Positions 3,489-9,424 of a stretch of 14,054 nucleotides of DNA are shown here, piece after piece (the stretch's first letter is position 1; each line of letters opens with the position of its first letter). A model generated the notes under the pieces. The model made no database searches, was not told the origin of the DNA, and saw only the letters and a program-made list of their open reading frames with translations. The position numbers were made by a program, and so were the translations under genes. The stretch comes from an uncultured Olsenella sp. (lineage in GTDB: Bacteria > Actinomycetota > Coriobacteriia > Coriobacteriales > Atopobiaceae). Where the stretch lies: assembly GCA_937900605.1 (NCBI GenBank), contig CALCDK010000172.1, positions 1-14,054 on the forward strand, written 5' to 3'.

Positions 3489-4880
3489 CTAGTTGGCCTT
3501 CTCCTCGGCAATCTTGGCGTTGCGCTTCTTGAACTCGAACATGAGCCAGACGAACAGCGCAATCCAGATGACCAGGGCGATGATGCCAGCGATGTTGCCG
3601 GAGAACGCGTTGGCGATGGCCCAACGGAAGTCCGGGGTCTCGAGGGTGGACCAGGTGACCATGGCGTTGCCCACGCCCGCGAGGGACTCGGGGGAGAACA
3701 TCTGGGCGAGCTTGGTCAGGAACGGAGCGAAGCTCGAGGAAGCCAGCAGGTAGATCGGGGTGATGAGGATGCCCTCGATGAGCATCTTGATCAGGTTGCC
3801 GCCGGTCATGATGAGGAGCACCGGGCCCAGGCAGATGTTGACGATGCCGGCGAACGGGAGAACCAGGTTGCCGCAGGGAGCCAGGACGAAGGCGAGGATG
3901 AGCTCGAACGGGATGAGGAGGATCATCGTGACCCACATCTCGTTGGAGCCGGCGACGATCGGCCAGTCAAGGCCGACGATGAGCTCGCGGCCCTCGAAGC
4001 GGCTGCGCATGAAGTTGCCCACGGCCTCGGAGATCGGGGAGAGGGCCTGCATGAACAGCTTGGAGACCATCGGGAACAGCATCATGGCGGTGCCGGCCTG
4101 GATGCCCAGGGTCAGGGCCTGCTGGAGGTCACGGTAGGCGACGGCGCCGAGCAGGCAGCCGATGATGAAGCCCATGACGGAGTTCTCGCCGAAGATGCCG
4201 ATCTTGTCGCGGAGCCACTTGGCGTCCAGGCTGTTGTTCTGGATGGCCGGAACCTTGGACAGGATCTTGTCGAAGGGGAGGACGACGGCGCAAGTGAGCA
4301 TCAGGGCGTGCGGAACGGTGACGCCGGGGATGCCGGTGATCTTCTCGATGGTCGGCTGGATGGCGTCGCCGATCTTGAGCTCGAGCACGATCTGGATGGC
4401 GGCGGCCAGGAAGCCGAGGGCGACGGCGACCGGCTCGGACATGCCGGCGGAGATGCACAGGAAGTACGTGATGACGCAGGTGCACAGCTTGGTCCAGGCG
4501 TTCCACAGGTCGACGTTCAGGACATTGGTCCACTTGAACGCGAGCATCACCAGGTTGATGACGATGAGCAGCGGGAAGCACAGGATGCCGAGCGGCCAGG
4601 CCCACGCGATGGCGGACAGGGCGGGCCAGCCCACGTCGGTGACGGGCAGGCTGATGCCGGTGGTGGCGGCAAGGCCCTGGGCGGCCGGGGTGATGGCGCC
4701 GGTCATGAAGTTGATCAGGACGCTCATGCCGGTGAAGCCGATGCCCAGGGTCAGGGCGGCGACGAACGCATCGCTGAACTTCATCTTGCAGATGAGGCCA
4801 ACGATCAGCATGATCAGCGGCACGAAGACGGCCGCACCAAAGCCCAGGATGTACTGGACAATGTTGTTGAGGATGTCCAT
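3489..4880 (-). CDS. PTS sugar transporter subunit IIC, galactitol (Gat) family
   Basis: A 463-aa polytopic inner-membrane permease, the sugar-translocating subunit of a phosphotransferase system; E. coli GatC is of similar length. About eleven hydrophobic segments are visible, among them residues 10-32, 38-60, 88-113, 130-160, 226-250, 315-337, 340-362 and 428-450. Family-like elements include GAITPAAQGLAA (61-72), GIPGVTVPHA (183-192) and FGENSVMGF (230-238). The C-terminus is basic (FEFKKRNAKIAEEKAN), as for a cytoplasmic tail. The ATG follows GGAGAAAGGAAAGGT, a strong ribosome binding site. It is the last gene of the operon, 76 nt after the aldolase gene, with a hairpin in that gap. Placing IIC last and away from IIA/IIB is less usual. 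The family is clear; the substrate cannot be read from the sequence and need not be galactitol. Confidence 0.92.
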   Translation of the reverse strand: MDILNNIVQYILGFGAAVFVPLIMLIVGLICKMKFSDAFVAALTLGIGFTGMSVLINFMTGAITPAAQGLAATTGISLPVTDVGWPALSAIAWAWPLGILCFPLLIVINLVMLAFKWTNVLNVDLWNAWTKLCTCVITYFLCISAGMSEPVAVALGFLAAAIQIVLELKIGDAIQPTIEKITGIPGVTVPHALMLTCAVVLPFDKILSKVPAIQNNSLDAKWLRDKIGIFGENSVMGFIIGCLLGAVAYRDLQQALTLGIQAGTAMMLFPMVSKLFMQALSPISEAVGNFMRSRFEGRELIVGLDWPIVAGSNEMWVTMILLIPFELILAFVLAPCGNLVLPFAGIVNICLGPVLLIMTGGNLIKMLIEGILITPIYLLASSSFAPFLTKLAQMFSPESLAGVGNAMVTWSTLETPDFRWAIANAFSGNIAGIIALVIWIALFVWLMFEFKKRNAKIAEEKAN

Positions 4881-4905
4881 ACCTTTCCTTTCTCCTCAAA
4901 TCACA

Positions 4906-4933
4906 TGGGACCCGCTCGTCCGGTGAGGTCCCA
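4906..4933 (-). repeat. Intercistronic hairpin between aldolase and EIIC genes
   Basis: TGGGACC (4906-4912) and GGTCCCA (4927-4933) form a perfect 7-bp stem with a 14-nt loop. In the minus-strand mRNA it begins 23 nt after the aldolase stop and ends upstream of the EIIC ribosome binding site. No T-run follows, so termination is unlikely; mRNA processing or stability is inference. Confidence 0.5.
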
Positions 4934-4956
4934 CGAAGCTACAGGCGGAATCGGGA

Positions 4957-5775
4957 CTAGTCGACGTAGCCCTCGCGAAGCGTGTTGCCGAAGTACGCGG
5001 CGGCGTCCTTGAGGCCCTGGTCGTCGATGCCGGGGTTGCGGTGGCCGCAGGCCTCCGCGAGGAGCCATGCCTCAGCGCACTTCTCGACGGTCTCGAGCAG
5101 GCCGAAGGCATCGTGCATGCTCTTGCCCGTGGTGAAGACGCCGTGGTACTGCCAAACGACGCAGCGACGGGTCTTCATCTTCTCGTTGGTCTGCTCGGCG
5201 ATCTCCGGGGTGCCGCAGACGCACCAGGGCACCAGGCCGACGCCATCCGGGAAGACGACGACGCCCTCGGTGATGATGCGCCAGAGGGCGAGGGTGAACT
5301 CGCGCTCATCGGTGGGGCCGCAGTGGGTCATGGCCAGGATGTGCGTGGCGTGGTTGTGCATCACGACGCGCTGCTCGGGGTCGACCGACAGACGGACCGC
5401 GTGGGTCTGGATGTGAGCGGCCAGCTCGGAGGTCGGGCGGTTGTTCTCGAGGCCGCAGACGATCTCGTAGTCGTCGCCCTCGGCGGGCAGGTAGATGATG
5501 CCGAGGAGCTCGTCGATGTTGTCCTTGATCTCGCGGAAGTAAGAGCCGGTGGCAGTGACCAGGACGTAGCGACCACGCATGGAATCGGGGACGTTGCCCA
5601 TCAGCGCGGCAGAGCGGCCGGTGCCGGGGACGTACTCGAGGTTGGCGGCCTCCTCGTCGGTCAGGATGTAGCTGACGTTACCGCCGTTAGCCTCGTCCCA
5701 GCCGCGCTCCCACATCTTGTAGGTGAGGTCGGCGACCTCCTGGACGGCTCCGAGGGTCTTCCAATCGCCCTTCAT
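4957..5775 (-). CDS. rhaD: Class II ketose-1-phosphate aldolase, L-rhamnulose-1-phosphate aldolase type
   Basis: A 272-aa cytosolic zinc aldolase; E. coli RhaD has 274 and cleaves L-rhamnulose 1-phosphate to DHAP and L-lactaldehyde. Family segments are aligned along its length: GWDEANGGNVS (25-35), VTATGSYFR (73-81), PTSELAAH (114-121), MHNHATH (139-145), VVFPDGVGLVPW (173-184) and WQYHGVF (208-214). The zinc ligands would be H140, H142 and H211, with E117 and E170 at the catalytic positions, all one residue or less from E. coli numbering. The start at 5775 has AGGGAG five bases upstream; an in-frame ATG (5790) and GTG (5805) farther upstream lack comparable sites. No rhamnose isomerase or kinase is nearby; instead it sits inside a PTS operon. 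The true substrate may be another ketose 1-phosphate, so the symbol denotes family resemblance. Confidence 0.88.
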   Translation of the reverse strand: MKGDWKTLGAVQEVADLTYKMWERGWDEANGGNVSYILTDEEAANLEYVPGTGRSAALMGNVPDSMRGRYVLVTATGSYFREIKDNIDELLGIIYLPAEGDDYEIVCGLENNRPTSELAAHIQTHAVRLSVDPEQRVVMHNHATHILAMTHCGPTDEREFTLALWRIITEGVVVFPDGVGLVPWCVCGTPEIAEQTNEKMKTRRCVVWQYHGVFTTGKSMHDAFGLLETVEKCAEAWLLAEACGHRNPGIDDQGLKDAAAYFGNTLREGYVD

Positions 5776-5816
5776 GTGTGCTCCCTTCATATGAAGTCTG
5801 GACACGACTCATGGTT

Positions 5817-5840
5817 CCGAGGGGGATGACTCCCCCTCGG
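5817..5840 (-). repeat. Intercistronic hairpin between the two-TM protein gene and the aldolase gene
   Basis: CCGAGGGGGA (5817-5826) and TCCCCCTCGG (5831-5840) form a perfect 10-bp stem with a 4-nt loop. On the minus strand it lies 24 nt after the stop of the preceding gene and is followed by AACCATGAGT, not T-rich. It is therefore more likely an mRNA processing or protection element, or a partial attenuator, than a full terminator. Confidence 0.6.
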
Positions 5841-5864
5841 TCATGAAGCTATGGATTCGGTTCT

Positions 5865-6245
5865 CTAGTGGTTCTGAGCGCGAGCAGCGCGCTTCTGGTC
5901 CTTCTTCTCCTTGCGCTGGGCGCGAAGCTCCTCGACGATCTCCAGGCGCTGCTCCTGGGTGATCTGCGGTCCCGCGTTCTTCTTGAGCGGGCTGTCCGCG
6001 AACCCCCTGAGCATCCCCTTGCGGCCCATGACCTCGACGAGGCCCGTGAGCAGGAAGGCCATGATCGCCAAGGAGATCTGGCCAGTGAAGAAGCCGAGCA
6101 GGAAGACGAGAAGTGCCACGATCAGCAGGGACCCCCAGAGCCACCGGGGGAACTGCGTGCGGGCCTGGAAGGAGTCGGTTGCCTGGAGCTCCTTCGCGAC
6201 GGCCTCGGCCTTGGCCCGCTGCTGCTTGCGCTTGTGACGAGACAT
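5865..6245 (-). CDS. Small basic two-TM protein of the PTS operon, unknown function (126 aa)
   Basis: I do not recognise a family. The N-terminus is strongly basic (MSRHKRKQQRAKAEAVAKEL). Two close hydrophobic segments follow, at about residues 35-54 (RWLWGSLLIVALLVFLLGFF region) and 57-73 (ISLAIMAFLLTGLVEVM), then a charged helical tail rich in K, R, E and Q (about 97-126, QEQRLEIVEELRAQRKEKK). Positive charge on both tails predicts a membrane hairpin with both ends in the cytosol. The ATG lies two bases after the EIIB stop (TAGgcATG on the minus strand), so translation is probably coupled to EIIB by re-initiation; the only upstream SD-like bases are CTAGG inside the EIIB end. This coupling suggests a stoichiometric partner of the PTS, such as an EIIC accessory or regulator of EIIB. 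That role is inference. Confidence 0.75.
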   Translation of the reverse strand: MSRHKRKQQRAKAEAVAKELQATDSFQARTQFPRWLWGSLLIVALLVFLLGFFTGQISLAIMAFLLTGLVEVMGRKGMLRGFADSPLKKNAGPQITQEQRLEIVEELRAQRKEKKDQKRAARAQNH

Positions 6246-6247
6246 GC

Positions 6248-6526
6248 CTAGAGGCTCTTGAGGTAGTCGGCAAGCTTGTCGGCCTCGGCGTCGGCACCAG
6301 CGCCGGTCAGGAAGGCGATGCCGTTGAACGTGGCGATGTCGTAGTCCTCGCCCTTGACGATGGAGACGTAGGCGTCGGCGTCGGCCAGGTAGTGCTTGAG
6401 GGACTTGATGTCGACTGCCTCGACGTCTGCCTGGACGCCGCGCTCGGTGAGCATGCGCTTGACCTTGGAGGCCACGAGCTGAGAAGTAGCGACGCCGGAA
6501 CCACACGCGCAGATGACCCTTGCCAT
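6248..6526 (-). CDS. PTS sugar transporter subunit IIB, galactitol (Gat/lactose-fold) type
   Basis: A 92-aa cytosolic phosphocarrier that passes phosphate from EIIA to the sugar bound by EIIC. The N-terminal P-loop VICACGSGVATSQL resembles GatB (IIVACGGAVATST); C8 is the predicted phosphorylated cysteine, and C6 lies two residues before it. The middle DIKSLKHYLADADAYVSI and the end FLTGAGADAEADKLADYL match the family length and fold, so the protein is complete. The start is fixed by AAGGAGG eight bases before the ATG, the strongest ribosome binding site in the operon. It follows the EIIA gene by an 81-nt gap containing a hairpin, and its stop nearly abuts the next start. Confidence 0.93.
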   Translation of the reverse strand: MARVICACGSGVATSQLVASKVKRMLTERGVQADVEAVDIKSLKHYLADADAYVSIVKGEDYDIATFNGIAFLTGAGADAEADKLADYLKSL

Positions 6527-6545
6527 ATCAGATCCTCCTTATCCT

Positions 6546-6568
6546 GCCGTGCCCCCTGTGGGCACGGC
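6546..6568 (-). repeat. Intercistronic hairpin between EIIA and EIIB genes
   Basis: GCCGTGCCC (6546-6554) and GGGCACGGC (6560-6568) form a perfect 9-bp stem with a 5-nt loop. A further 12-bp palindrome GTCCCGCGGGAC (6584-6595) lies just upstream in the transcript, 12 nt after the EIIA stop. No T-run follows either. They could limit read-through or protect a processed EIIA message; both roles are inference. Confidence 0.6.
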
Positions 6569-6607
6569 GCTGATTGCGAAAGCGTCCCGCGGGACGGGAC
6601 AGTCGAG

Positions 6608-7081
6608 CTACTCCTGGAACAGGGCGCTCAGGGTGTCGACCATGCCCTGCTCGGTGTCCTGCGCGAGGACGCGCTTGGACTTCTCGTCGTCCATGAAGAT
6701 GTTCATGAGCGTCTGCAGGACGGCGACCTGGCCGCCGTCGCGCTCGACGCCGAGGTTGACGATGAGCTGGGCGTTGACGTCGGGGCCCGCGCCGGCCATG
6801 TGCTCGAACACGATGGGGCTGGAGGGCTTCACGACGGCAATGTAGGGCTTGTTGAGGTGCGAGGGGTCGACGTGCGGGATGGCGACGTCGATGCTGTCGA
6901 AGTGGAGGCCGGTGGCATAGTTGGTCTCGCGCTCCTCGATGGCCTCGTACCAAGAGGGCTTGATGAGACCCTTGGCCTCGAGCTTGGCACCGAGCTCCTT
7001 GAAGAACTCGTGACGGTCTGCGGCCTCGAAGTCGAAGAAGACCAGATCGGGGCTGAACAGCTGAGCATCCTGAGACGCCAT
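6608..7081 (-). CDS. PTS sugar transporter subunit IIA, fructose/mannitol-fold (EIIA-2, GatA-like)
   Basis: A 157-aa cytosolic phosphocarrier that takes phosphate from HPr and gives it to EIIB. The active-site histidine is H70 in VAIPHVDPSH, the family signature (AIPHG/AIPHT in relatives). It is preceded by RETNYATGLHF, corresponding to the usual RE-x-x-x-TG-hydrophobic segment, and followed by PIVFEH and QVAVLQTLMNIF, the normal EIIA-2 order. The ATG at 7081 is preceded by GAGGAGG and five bases; a longer in-frame reading to 7138 lacks such a site. It is the first structural gene of the operon, with a 243-nt regulatory gap to the regulator's stop. The family is sure; the substrate is not readable. 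Confidence 0.93.
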   Translation of the reverse strand: MASQDAQLFSPDLVFFDFEAADRHEFFKELGAKLEAKGLIKPSWYEAIEERETNYATGLHFDSIDVAIPHVDPSHLNKPYIAVVKPSSPIVFEHMAGAGPDVNAQLIVNLGVERDGGQVAVLQTLMNIFMDDEKSKRVLAQDTEQGMVDTLSALFQE

Positions 7082-7324: not shown

Positions 7325-9424
7325 CTACCGCAGGAGCTGGTACTCGTACTTCTCGACGAGGGCCGCGGCCTCGCACTCGGTCCTCGCCTCGCGCAGGGCG
7401 CACAGGAAGGCGTTACCCGGCATGTTGATGATGTCGAGCAGGTTGGCGAAGGCCTTGAGGTGCAGCTTGCGGTCGACGGCCGAGAGCGTGCAGACGAACT
7501 CGACCGACTTGCGGTCCTCGTCGCCGAAGGGCACCGGATGGGCCAGGCGGATGAGGCTCATACCCATCTTCACCGTCCCCTCCTCGGGCGAGGCATGTGG
7601 CACGGCGAAGCCCGGCGCAAGGACGTCGTAGGCGCCGTAGCGCTCGATGCCGGCGACCATGGCGTCCACGTAGCGCTCCTCGATGTAGCCCATCTCGAGC
7701 AGCGGGGCGGCGGACTTGGCCACTGCCTCGCGCCAGTCGTCGCACTCGACGTCGAGGCGGATGTGCGACGGCGTGAGCAGCTGGTGCAGATACGGCGAGA
7801 GGATCTGCCCCTCGAGGTGCTGGGCCTCGTGGAAGTAGCGGCGGACCTCGGCGCGCACCTCGCCCAGCAGCGGGCTCCCCTCTCCGCAGCTCGCCACGAT
7901 GAGCGGCTCCAGGCGGGAGAGCAGGCCCTTGGCGTTCATCTCGTCGACCTCGCAGCCGGCAGCGCTGGGGACGGGGCCGATGGCGTCGAGCTTCTTGTGG
8001 ATGAGGGCGTACTCGCGGTCGCGCAGCGGCAGGTGAATGACGATCGACTCGACCGGGCAGTTGTCCAGCGGCACCGTGGAGATGACCAGGTCGGCGTTGT
8101 GGACCTCGATGTAGGGCACGTCGTGGGCCGGCATGACGCTCACGATCTTGATGTCGAAGTGGCCGCGCAGCTCCTCTGCGAGCAGCTGGGAGGTGCCCAC
8201 GCCGCCGTCGCAGACCACCACGACGCGCGGGCACACGCCACGGTTCTTGCGGCGCTCGAGCGCGGCACAGACGTGCAGCGCGATGTACTTGGTCTCGACC
8301 GGCGTGATGTCGCGCCCGGCGTACTCCTCGAGCGGTTCCAGGTTGTCCTGCACCGCCTCGAAGGCGGCGGGCTGATCGTTGATGACCTCGTCCAGGGCTG
8401 GGTTCTCCGGGAAGTGGGAGGGCTCCGTGGTGAACATGGACTCGAGGTGGTTCGAGAGGTACTCGAACAGGTCGTAGTCGTCGTTGAGGTCCACGCCGTA
8501 CTGCTGCGACACGCTGCGGATGAAGACTCGCGTGAGCTTCTTGACCTGGAGGTCGTCGGGGTCGAACTGCCCGGCGCCGCTCAGCCGCATCGGCTGGGCC
8601 GTCTGGGCGAAGAACTCCTCCTCGTCGGGGCCCATGCGCACGGAGCAGTACTGACCCACGAGGTCCACGACGGTCCGCTCGAACTCGCTGGGCTCGCAGG
8701 GGAACTCCGTCTCGACGTCCTCCTCCTGATCGAGGTGACAGCCCTGGCGGTTGCGCAGGACGCACACGCACAGGTGGTCAACGGCGCGCTGGAAGGGCCC
8801 ATCGGGCATGTAGATGCCACTTGCGTGGCAGCGCTCGTTGAGAATCTTGCGCACCGTGATGGCGATGGAGCGCAGCTGCGCGTTGGCCGGCTGCGACAGC
8901 CACTGGTCGACGATCGGCGCGTCGCCCCTGCCCAGGAACTCGACGAGGAACGTTCGACGCGCGCGCTCGGAGCCCAGCACGCGGATGCCGTGGCTGGGCT
9001 TGGACTCGACCTCGAGGCCGGCGGAGGCGACCAGCGCCTTGATGCCATCGAGGTCGTTGAGGATGGTGGCGCGGCTCACCGAGAAGAGCTCGGCGATCTC
9101 GCCCAGGGTGACGTAGTCCGTGGCACCGATCAGGATGGCGGCGCCGAGCTCCTTGCGCTCCTCGATCGACATCTTGTACGCGAAGGTGTCGACGACGGGA
9201 AGCAGCCGCTCGACCGACGAGAAGCCCGCGGGGAGCACCACGAGGCCGCGCGCGCCGAAGCACACCGGCTCCAGCGACTTCTTGGCCATGAACTCGTTGA
9301 GGGCCTTGATGTCGTTGCGGATGGTCCTGTCGGACACGCCGAACTTGGTGGCGAGGTCGTGCAGGTGGCAGGGGCCTGCCGAGTGCGAGAGCTCCTGGAC
9401 GATGCGCACGGTACGCTCGTTCAT
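7325..9424 (-). CDS. PRD-containing transcriptional activator of MtlR/LicR type (HTH-HTH-PRD-PRD-EIIB-EIIA)
   Basis: A 699-aa cytosolic regulator whose activity is set by PTS phosphorylation. The domains run HTH_11 (about 1-60, SDRTIRNDIKAL at 31-42), a second Mga/DeoR-like HTH (about 85-150, SVSRATILNDLDGI), PRD1 (about 190-295, H217), PRD2 (about 300-395, H326 and H384), a Gat-type EIIB domain with C405 in CDGGVGTSQL, and a C-terminal EIIA-2 domain (about 545-699) with H610 in FAVPHASPEEG. The HTH pair and EIIA tail make it a DNA-binding activator rather than an RNA antiterminator of BglG type. PRD1 seems to lack the second conserved histidine. The start has GGGAGGTG just upstream. It lies upstream of the PTS genes on the same strand and very probably controls them, responding to phosphate flow through EIIB and HPr. 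Confidence 0.92.
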   Translation of the reverse strand: MNERTVRIVQELSHSAGPCHLHDLATKFGVSDRTIRNDIKALNEFMAKKSLEPVCFGARGLVVLPAGFSSVERLLPVVDTFAYKMSIEERKELGAAILIGATDYVTLGEIAELFSVSRATILNDLDGIKALVASAGLEVESKPSHGIRVLGSERARRTFLVEFLGRGDAPIVDQWLSQPANAQLRSIAITVRKILNERCHASGIYMPDGPFQRAVDHLCVCVLRNRQGCHLDQEEDVETEFPCEPSEFERTVVDLVGQYCSVRMGPDEEEFFAQTAQPMRLSGAGQFDPDDLQVKKLTRVFIRSVSQQYGVDLNDDYDLFEYLSNHLESMFTTEPSHFPENPALDEVINDQPAAFEAVQDNLEPLEEYAGRDITPVETKYIALHVCAALERRKNRGVCPRVVVVCDGGVGTSQLLAEELRGHFDIKIVSVMPAHDVPYIEVHNADLVISTVPLDNCPVESIVIHLPLRDREYALIHKKLDAIGPVPSAAGCEVDEMNAKGLLSRLEPLIVASCGEGSPLLGEVRAEVRRYFHEAQHLEGQILSPYLHQLLTPSHIRLDVECDDWREAVAKSAAPLLEMGYIEERYVDAMVAGIERYGAYDVLAPGFAVPHASPEEGTVKMGMSLIRLAHPVPFGDEDRKSVEFVCTLSAVDRKLHLKAFANLLDIINMPGNAFLCALREARTECEAAALVEKYEYQLLR

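Follow-up and report, generated by a model that had tools for sequence, protein, structure and literature searches.

The described systems closest to the locus reported here are the classical L-rhamnose pathway of RhaT, RhaA, RhaB and RhaD, and the mammalian fructose 1-phosphate route, which uses ketohexokinase and aldolase B. Two bacterial phosphotransferase system (PTS) arrangements are also similar. In the D-tagatose PTS (TagTH, TagK) with GatY, the kinase makes a 1,6-bisphosphate, upon which a bisphosphate aldolase then acts (excerpt of PMC10101011), and a PTS-plus-aldolase cassette annotated in Lactiplantibacillus plantarum (lp_3599-lp_3603) has been assigned to galactitol (excerpt of PMC8704671). 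Here we describe a cassette in a 14,054-nucleotide stretch of DNA from an uncultured Olsenella sp. (assembly GCA_937900605.1, contig CALCDK010000172.1; the whole stretch is referred to as the window), in which a RhaD-type aldolase gene lies between the EIIB and EIIC genes of a Gat-family PTS. We give a probability of about 0.52 to the proposal that this operon is a ketose-utilization cassette, in which a ketohexose 1-phosphate would be cleaved to dihydroxyacetone phosphate (DHAP) and glyceraldehyde, with a dihydroxyacetone (DHA) kinase acting as triokinase.

The cassette shares with the classical rhamnose pathway the RhaD fold and the catalytic and phosphate-pocket residues, but has a PTS in place of RhaT and RhaB, an aldolase of a separate RhaD subfamily, and a DHA kinase in its relatives. 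Ketose import by a PTS followed by an aldolase is common to it and the D-tagatose pathway, whereas the window cassette probably splits the monophosphate first, the triose being phosphorylated afterwards. With the mammalian route it would share the cleavage of a ketose 1-phosphate to DHAP and glyceraldehyde, as proposed here, and the subsequent use of a triokinase of the DHA kinase family; it differs in that a PTS replaces the first kinase, and in aldolase family and stereochemistry. Its likeness to lp_3599-lp_3603 is one of annotation in the excerpt rather than of compared sequences, and, that cassette apart, titles and abstract openings of the open-licence PMC papers found by our searches name no RhaD-PTS or PTS-aldolase-DHA-kinase cassette. 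We rate the cassette as a variation on an already annotated PTS-plus-aldolase type, of which the RhaD version with DHA kinase-bearing relatives is new.

Transcription on the minus strand of the window runs in the order PRD regulator, EIIA, EIIB, a small membrane protein (2TM), RhaD-type aldolase and Gat-type EIIC. The five genes from EIIA to EIIC are separated by 81, 2, 89 and 76 bases and form a single minus-strand operon.

3489-4880, minus strand: EIIC, a Gat-family PTS permease of 463 residues (PF03611; TIGR00827 below cut-off; 9u82)
4957-5775, minus strand: RhaD-type class II aldolase of a PTS-linked subfamily, 272 residues, ATG at 5775 (Pfam Aldolase_II, 95 bits; NF002963, 1gt7, active-site residues, trees)
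5865-6245, minus strand: 2TM, a small membrane protein of 126 residues in which two hydrophobic stretches precede a basic C-terminal tail, ATG at 6245 (orphan family)
6248-6526, minus strand: EIIB, 92 residues (PF02302, 46 bits; galactitol EIIB model below cut-off)
6608-7081, minus strand: EIIA of the fructose/galactitol type, 157 residues (PF00359, 89 bits; PRK09665 below cut-off)
7325-9424, minus strand: PRD-type regulator with HTH_11, PRD and C-terminal PTS_EIIA_2 domains, 699 residues (Pfam), the probable operon regulator

The window aldolase scores 277 bits on the NCBIfam RhaD model NF002963 (cut-off 170) and 273.6 bits on TIGR02624 (cut-off 400.95), and solved RhaD chains match it (1gt7, E 3e-47); weaker NCBIfam matches of these aldolases are to epimerases and decarboxylases of the class II aldolase superfamily. 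Its residues E117, H140, H142, E170 and H211 align with E117, H141, H143, E171 and H212 of E. coli RhaD, which bears out the claim of an earlier, sequence-only reading of the window that they are intact. The DHAP-phosphate site of RhaD comprises N29, N32, S75, T115 and S116 (excerpt of PMC3962226), and its counterparts in the window aldolase are N30, N33, T76 (for S), T115 and S116; zinc, catalytic and DHAP-phosphate residues are all retained. The remaining seven Coriobacteriia PTS-linked RhaDs have N, N, S/T, S/T and S at the phosphate site, and that of L003 has a Met beside it where the other PTS-linked sequences have Gly. Solitary RhaD homologues without a PTS match are present in other Coriobacteriia (L006:8636-9481, L007:9796-10605, L008:6638-7447 and L009:10001-10807). 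The phosphate site is altered in L007-L009 (N29 to G and S116 to G, with GWDEANGGN becoming GWTPGGGGN), such that their substrate may lack a C1 phosphate.

A protein search found 416 aldolase homologues, of which the best 120 were listed. Scanning genome contigs with a 48-sequence alignment gave 50 loci, ten of them in Coriobacteriia; the single aldolase protein as query gave no locus, and a scan of viral contigs gave no relative. Aldolase profile matches are present in 159 of 396 Coriobacteriia genomes and exceed 400 bits in eight, of which six are PTS-linked (G001, G002, G004, G005, G068 and G233) and two solitary (G006 and G009). Those six, together with the window and L003, a locus from a metagenome-assembled genome, make up eight PTS-linked loci, and the EIIB-2TM-RhaD-EIIC order is kept in all eight. 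Up to 10 kb was read to each side of a locus, L003 comprising just 5.7 kb in all with its EIIC cut; gene labels in L002, L123 and L126 rest on tblastn, the RhaDs of L004 and L082 are identical, and the genomes of the relatives come without completeness values. The direct coupling of RhaD to the PTS noted in the sequence-only reading is supported. It is also less isolated than was thought, as cassettes that pair a Gat-type PTS with a class II aldolase recur. We rejected a chance neighbourhood of PTS and RhaD because the arrangement recurs in seven other loci and in two classes.

The sequence-only reading also depended on rhaA and rhaB not being regular neighbours in relatives, and neither gene was matched by tblastn in the stretches read around any of the eight loci; RhaA and RhaB, which together would mark an L-rhamnose utilization operon, are thus seen neither in the window operon nor in those of its seven relatives. 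E. coli RhaA, RhaB, RhaM and RhaT used as tblastn queries have no match in the window. RhaA (PF06134) was not found in any of the nine genomes G001-G009, in G068, or in the Bacilli PTS-RhaD genomes G728 and G736, and was found in G233. This last genome has a classical rhaB-rhaA-rhaD locus (L084) in addition to its PTS-RhaD locus (L083), and its PTS-linked RhaD is therefore not its only one; in G001, G002, G004, G005 and G068 the PTS-linked RhaD is the sole aldolase-profile match and there is no RhaA match. Across the seven PTS-RhaD genomes nothing exceeds the cut-off of the Gram-positive rhamnose isomerase model, G233 having one weak match, and strong rhamnulokinase matches are confined to G003 (467 bits, below the cut-off of 528) and G233 (532 bits), the other five giving less than 54 bits.

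As controls, 18 classical Coriobacteriia loci have rhaB near RhaD in 16 instances and an E. coli-type rhaA in eight. In five others, where no E. coli-type RhaA was found, a gene encoding 472-475 residues lies between rhaB and rhaD (L086:10583-12001, L089:8352-9770, L092:8037-9455, L095:5230-6657 and L098:7592-9010). The L089 protein, the one member typed, matches the arabinose isomerase C-terminal domain at 27 bits (cut-off 25), and from this match the gene could encode a rhamnose isomerase of a different type. Used as a query against the seven PTS-RhaD genomes, it gives a very weak 18-bit match in G001, an 82-residue piece in G233 and none in the other five.

A RhaD tree of 67 sequences, including 29 of the 120 listed database proteins, divides at a midpoint split supported at 100/99. 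One side holds all ten PTS-linked RhaDs (eight from Coriobacteriia and two from Bacilli), four solitary ones and 15 database sequences whose genomic context is unread; the opposite side holds 24 rows labelled classical and 14 database sequences. We saw rhaB adjoining 19 of those 24, with no rhaA or rhaB match at L085, L101, L010 and L018, and with the surroundings of L040 unread. A 93-row tree, which omits P0001, P0039 and P0060-P0120, likewise separates the Coriobacteriia PTS-linked group (100/99); the partial L050 is left out of both trees. The Bacilli PTS-linked sequences are L156, on a long branch, and L162, and because of these the PTS-RhaD pairing spans more than one class. The cassette as a remnant of a rhamnose operon was rejected on two grounds, the lack of rhaA and rhaB at every PTS-linked locus read and the separate RhaD clade.

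A DHA kinase adjoins the cassette in six of the six testable relatives, one copy being broken, and L003 cannot be judged; the window has no such neighbour. In L001, L004 and L082 a fused DhaKL lies 3' of EIIC, with a second-type EIIA intervening in L001; in L005 DhaK, DhaL and DhaKL precede EIIB, in L002 DhaK and DhaL are divergent from the cassette, and L083 has the broken copy. Queries for PfkB, FGGY and DHA kinases (tblastn) have no match in the window. The claim that the window contains neither isomerase nor kinase therefore stands as far as matches go, but the kinase-free pathway built upon it is unsupported given the DHA kinases of the relatives. Dak1 is present in all seven PTS-RhaD genomes versus two of 11 others searched, and in those two it lies on a different contig from RhaD. 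Every Dak1 match in G001, G002, G004, G005 and G068 maps to the cassette, both in G003 are on another contig, and G233 has one piece at its RhaD cassette and three at a second, FucA-type cassette. The broken genes in G233 are the EIIA and DhaKL of the RhaD cassette (L083:12083-12960) and the DhaK of the FucA cassette (L124:8225-9213). The FucA cassette keeps an open DhaKL frame, and G233 thus illustrates how the kinase for a RhaD cassette could be supplied from another locus; in the window organism too, a DHA kinase is presumably encoded elsewhere in the genome.

EIIC relatives are found in 82 of the 396 Coriobacteriia genomes, seven of them at 65-81% identity and a further thirteen at 44-46%; those below 44% were left unread except G366 (38%, L137), where there is no class II aldolase or DHA kinase match. 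RhaD accompanies six of the seven. At the seventh (G176, L122) there is no RhaD match, the aldolase there being FucA-like; a 2TM homologue is present, as is a DHA kinase in divergent orientation. All thirteen loci of the 44-46% group (L124-L136) contain EIIA, EIIB, EIIC, FucA-like aldolase and DHA kinase genes, the aldolase being typed in L133 and assigned by tblastn in the others, and ten have a PRD regulator. Their gene set also includes a larger untyped membrane protein, DhaK, a DhaL-like gene and a fused DhaKL, with two DHA kinases side by side. These cassettes share with the window a class II aldolase and EIIC at 44-46% identity, but have a FucA-like instead of a RhaD-like aldolase and the larger membrane protein in place of 2TM, and the window itself lacks their DHA kinases. 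DHA kinases accompany 20 of the 21 Coriobacteriia cassettes besides the window, and a PfkB accompanies one.

The 2TM protein has no Pfam or NCBIfam match. Homologues are present in all nine loci aligned (the window, L001-L005, L082, L083 and L122) at 16-30% identity, and their genes adjoin EIIB or EIIC of this PTS; 2TM represents an orphan family conserved in the cassette and is possibly an accessory subunit. Grouping it with the larger membrane protein of the FucA cassettes is weakly rejected, the matches coming from L003 alone (E 0.001-0.005).

A different kinase is seen in Bacilli, where EIIC relatives are found in 86 of 398 genomes; the ten at 47-51% identity were read and those below 47% were not. 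A class II aldolase is present in each of the ten neighbourhoods: two (L156 and L162) have a RhaD-like enzyme and nine a FucA-like one, L162 having both. Eight have a PfkB-type kinase, split into two pieces at L159 and encoded on the opposite strand at L157, L162 and L163. PfkB is missing from L155, and a partial match 7 kb away in L156 is not counted. No DHA kinase match was found in any of the ten, and 2TM homologues, all weak matches, are seen in four. The six PfkBs typed exceed the cut-off of the hexose kinase subfamily and of no equivalog model. FGGY kinases, xylulokinase-like and below cut-off, also lie near four of the cassettes (L154:3940-5313, L160:6244-7773, L159 and L161). At the FucA phosphate-site positions, the FucA-like aldolases of three Bacilli loci deviate at several places, and seven from Coriobacteriia do so less.

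That Bacilli cassettes have PfkB where those of Coriobacteriia have DHA kinase suggests a need to phosphorylate the second triose, which would happen on the hexose before cleavage in Bacilli and on the triose after it in Coriobacteriia. A plausible scenario for the Coriobacteriia is that a ketohexose enters through the Gat-type PTS, which phosphorylates it at C1, and that the PTS-subfamily RhaD, judged by its conserved residues, would cleave the ketose 1-phosphate to DHAP and glyceraldehyde. A DHA kinase, adjacent in relatives and presumably encoded elsewhere in the window organism, would then act as triokinase to give glyceraldehyde 3-phosphate, so that both triose halves could enter glycolysis; the PRD regulator, from its family, would sense PTS flux and control the operon. 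RhaD is described as converting DHAP and D-glyceraldehyde to D-sorbose and D-allulose (excerpt of PMC9048046), and human triokinase, of the DHA kinase family, as phosphorylating D-glyceraldehyde and DHA (excerpt of PMC6429413). The substrate is likely a 3R ketohexose (D-allulose, D-sorbose or L-fructose) rather than L-rhamnulose. The L-rhamnulose, L-fuculose and 5-deoxypentulose candidates put forward earlier are disfavoured and find no support, as the DHA kinases and the PfkBs suggest phosphorylation of a second hydroxyl; the 6-deoxyketoses L-rhamnulose and L-fuculose have none at that end.

Several observations weigh against the proposed ketohexose 1-phosphate cassette. No DHA kinase match is present in the window, which reaches 3.5 kb downstream of EIIC and 7.0 kb upstream of EIIA, and the relatives that have one are all Coriobacteriia and not independent, as the identical RhaDs of L004 and L082 illustrate. 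The fused DHA kinases pass a subfamily model alone and no equivalog cut-off, L002 has both kinases, its PfkB being about 5 kb from EIIB, and the Bacilli PTS-RhaD loci L156 and L162 have no DHA kinase, L156 lacking an adjoining PfkB as well. Moreover, PTS phosphorylation at C1 and all of the substrate assignments are what we infer from the genes, and the alternation with PfkB is also compatible with a ketose 6-phosphate. In that event the PTS would make the 6-phosphate, the aldolase would split it to unphosphorylated DHA and glyceraldehyde 3-phosphate, and DHA would be converted to DHAP by the DHA kinase, in keeping with the family to which the linked kinase belongs. An excerpt of PMC3962226, which compares the rate of a variant with that of the wild type, describes RhaD as accepting unphosphorylated DHA to some extent, and the Bacilli PfkB could be a 6-phosphate-ketose 1-kinase, the best equivalog model for that of L163 being tagatose-6-phosphate kinase, below cut-off. 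We nonetheless consider such a DHA-forming route unlikely, since the DHAP-phosphate pocket, altered in the solitary L007-L009, is kept in all Coriobacteriia and Bacilli PTS-linked sequences read, and a kept pocket favours a 1-phosphate over a 6-phosphate; furthermore, the other five of the six typed PfkBs score best among equivalogs on 1-phosphofructokinase, although all are below cut-off.

The route of the sequence-only reading, in which L-rhamnulose, L-fuculose, L-xylulose or a 5-deoxy-pentulose enters through the PTS and RhaD, without help from another kinase, cleaves the 1-phosphate into DHAP and a small aldehyde, is distinctly unlikely. It would account for the intact RhaD residues and for a window free of kinase matches, and an aldo-keto reductase downstream of the L002 cassette (DkgA-like, below cut-off) could reduce the aldehyde. 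However, it is hard to see what the DHA kinases in all six testable relatives and the PfkBs in eight of ten Bacilli loci would do with deoxy products. The subfamily is separated from classical RhaD in the tree, and G233 has classical rhaB-rhaA-rhaD besides. It is also conceivable, and we think very unlikely, that the enzyme performs another reaction of its superfamily, such as epimerisation or decarboxylation, or uses a phosphate unrelated to the PTS. The superfamily includes epimerases and decarboxylases, seen among the weaker NCBIfam matches, PTS-less relatives exist (L006-L009), and the G176 cassette, in the same EIIC clade, has a FucA-like protein and no RhaD, but the score on the RhaD model, the conserved catalytic Glu and zinc ligands, and the pairing with a PTS in two classes all speak for an aldolase.

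EIIC belongs to the EIIC-GAT family (PF03611, 227 bits against a cut-off of 24.2), its sole solved relative found being a galactitol PTS IIC (9u82, E 1e-60), and all matches to galactitol models are below cut-off (TIGR00827, 250.9 against 542; PRK10310, 34.5 against 95; PRK09665, 63.5 against 139). Neither GatD dehydrogenase nor GatYZ is among the window operon proteins typed, and no search for them was made at other loci; GatY-like and tagatose-6-phosphate-kinase-like genes lie close to the L002 cassette. A homologue of the PRD regulator is beside the cassette in L001 (61%) and was undetected at L002-L005, L082 and L083. Elsewhere in the window, the plus strand encodes a DEAD-box helicase with DUF3516, a UvrD-like helicase, a Schlafen AlbA_2 protein and an MFS transporter truncated by the window end. 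A promoter scan gave none against 0.7 expected, and there are four terminator-like sites against 2.6 expected.

Taking the ketose-utilization reading more broadly, we suggest tentatively, and at somewhat less than even odds, that the cassette serves rare 3R-ketohexoses in bacteria much as the fructose 1-phosphate route serves fructose in the liver, with a dedicated RhaD (or FucA) subfamily that splits the PTS-made ketose 1-phosphate as a monophosphate, a triokinase acting after cleavage in Coriobacteriia and a PfkB acting before it in Bacilli. Some subfamily proteins are publicly named rhamnulose-1-phosphate aldolase (P0022, P0029, P0038 and P0045), and because of these names genomes with a PTS-linked RhaD alone may be credited with a use of rhamnose that they lack. 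The cassettes offer a candidate route by which Coriobacteriia would use rare ketoses such as D-allulose, and are a source of aldolases for rare-sugar chemistry.

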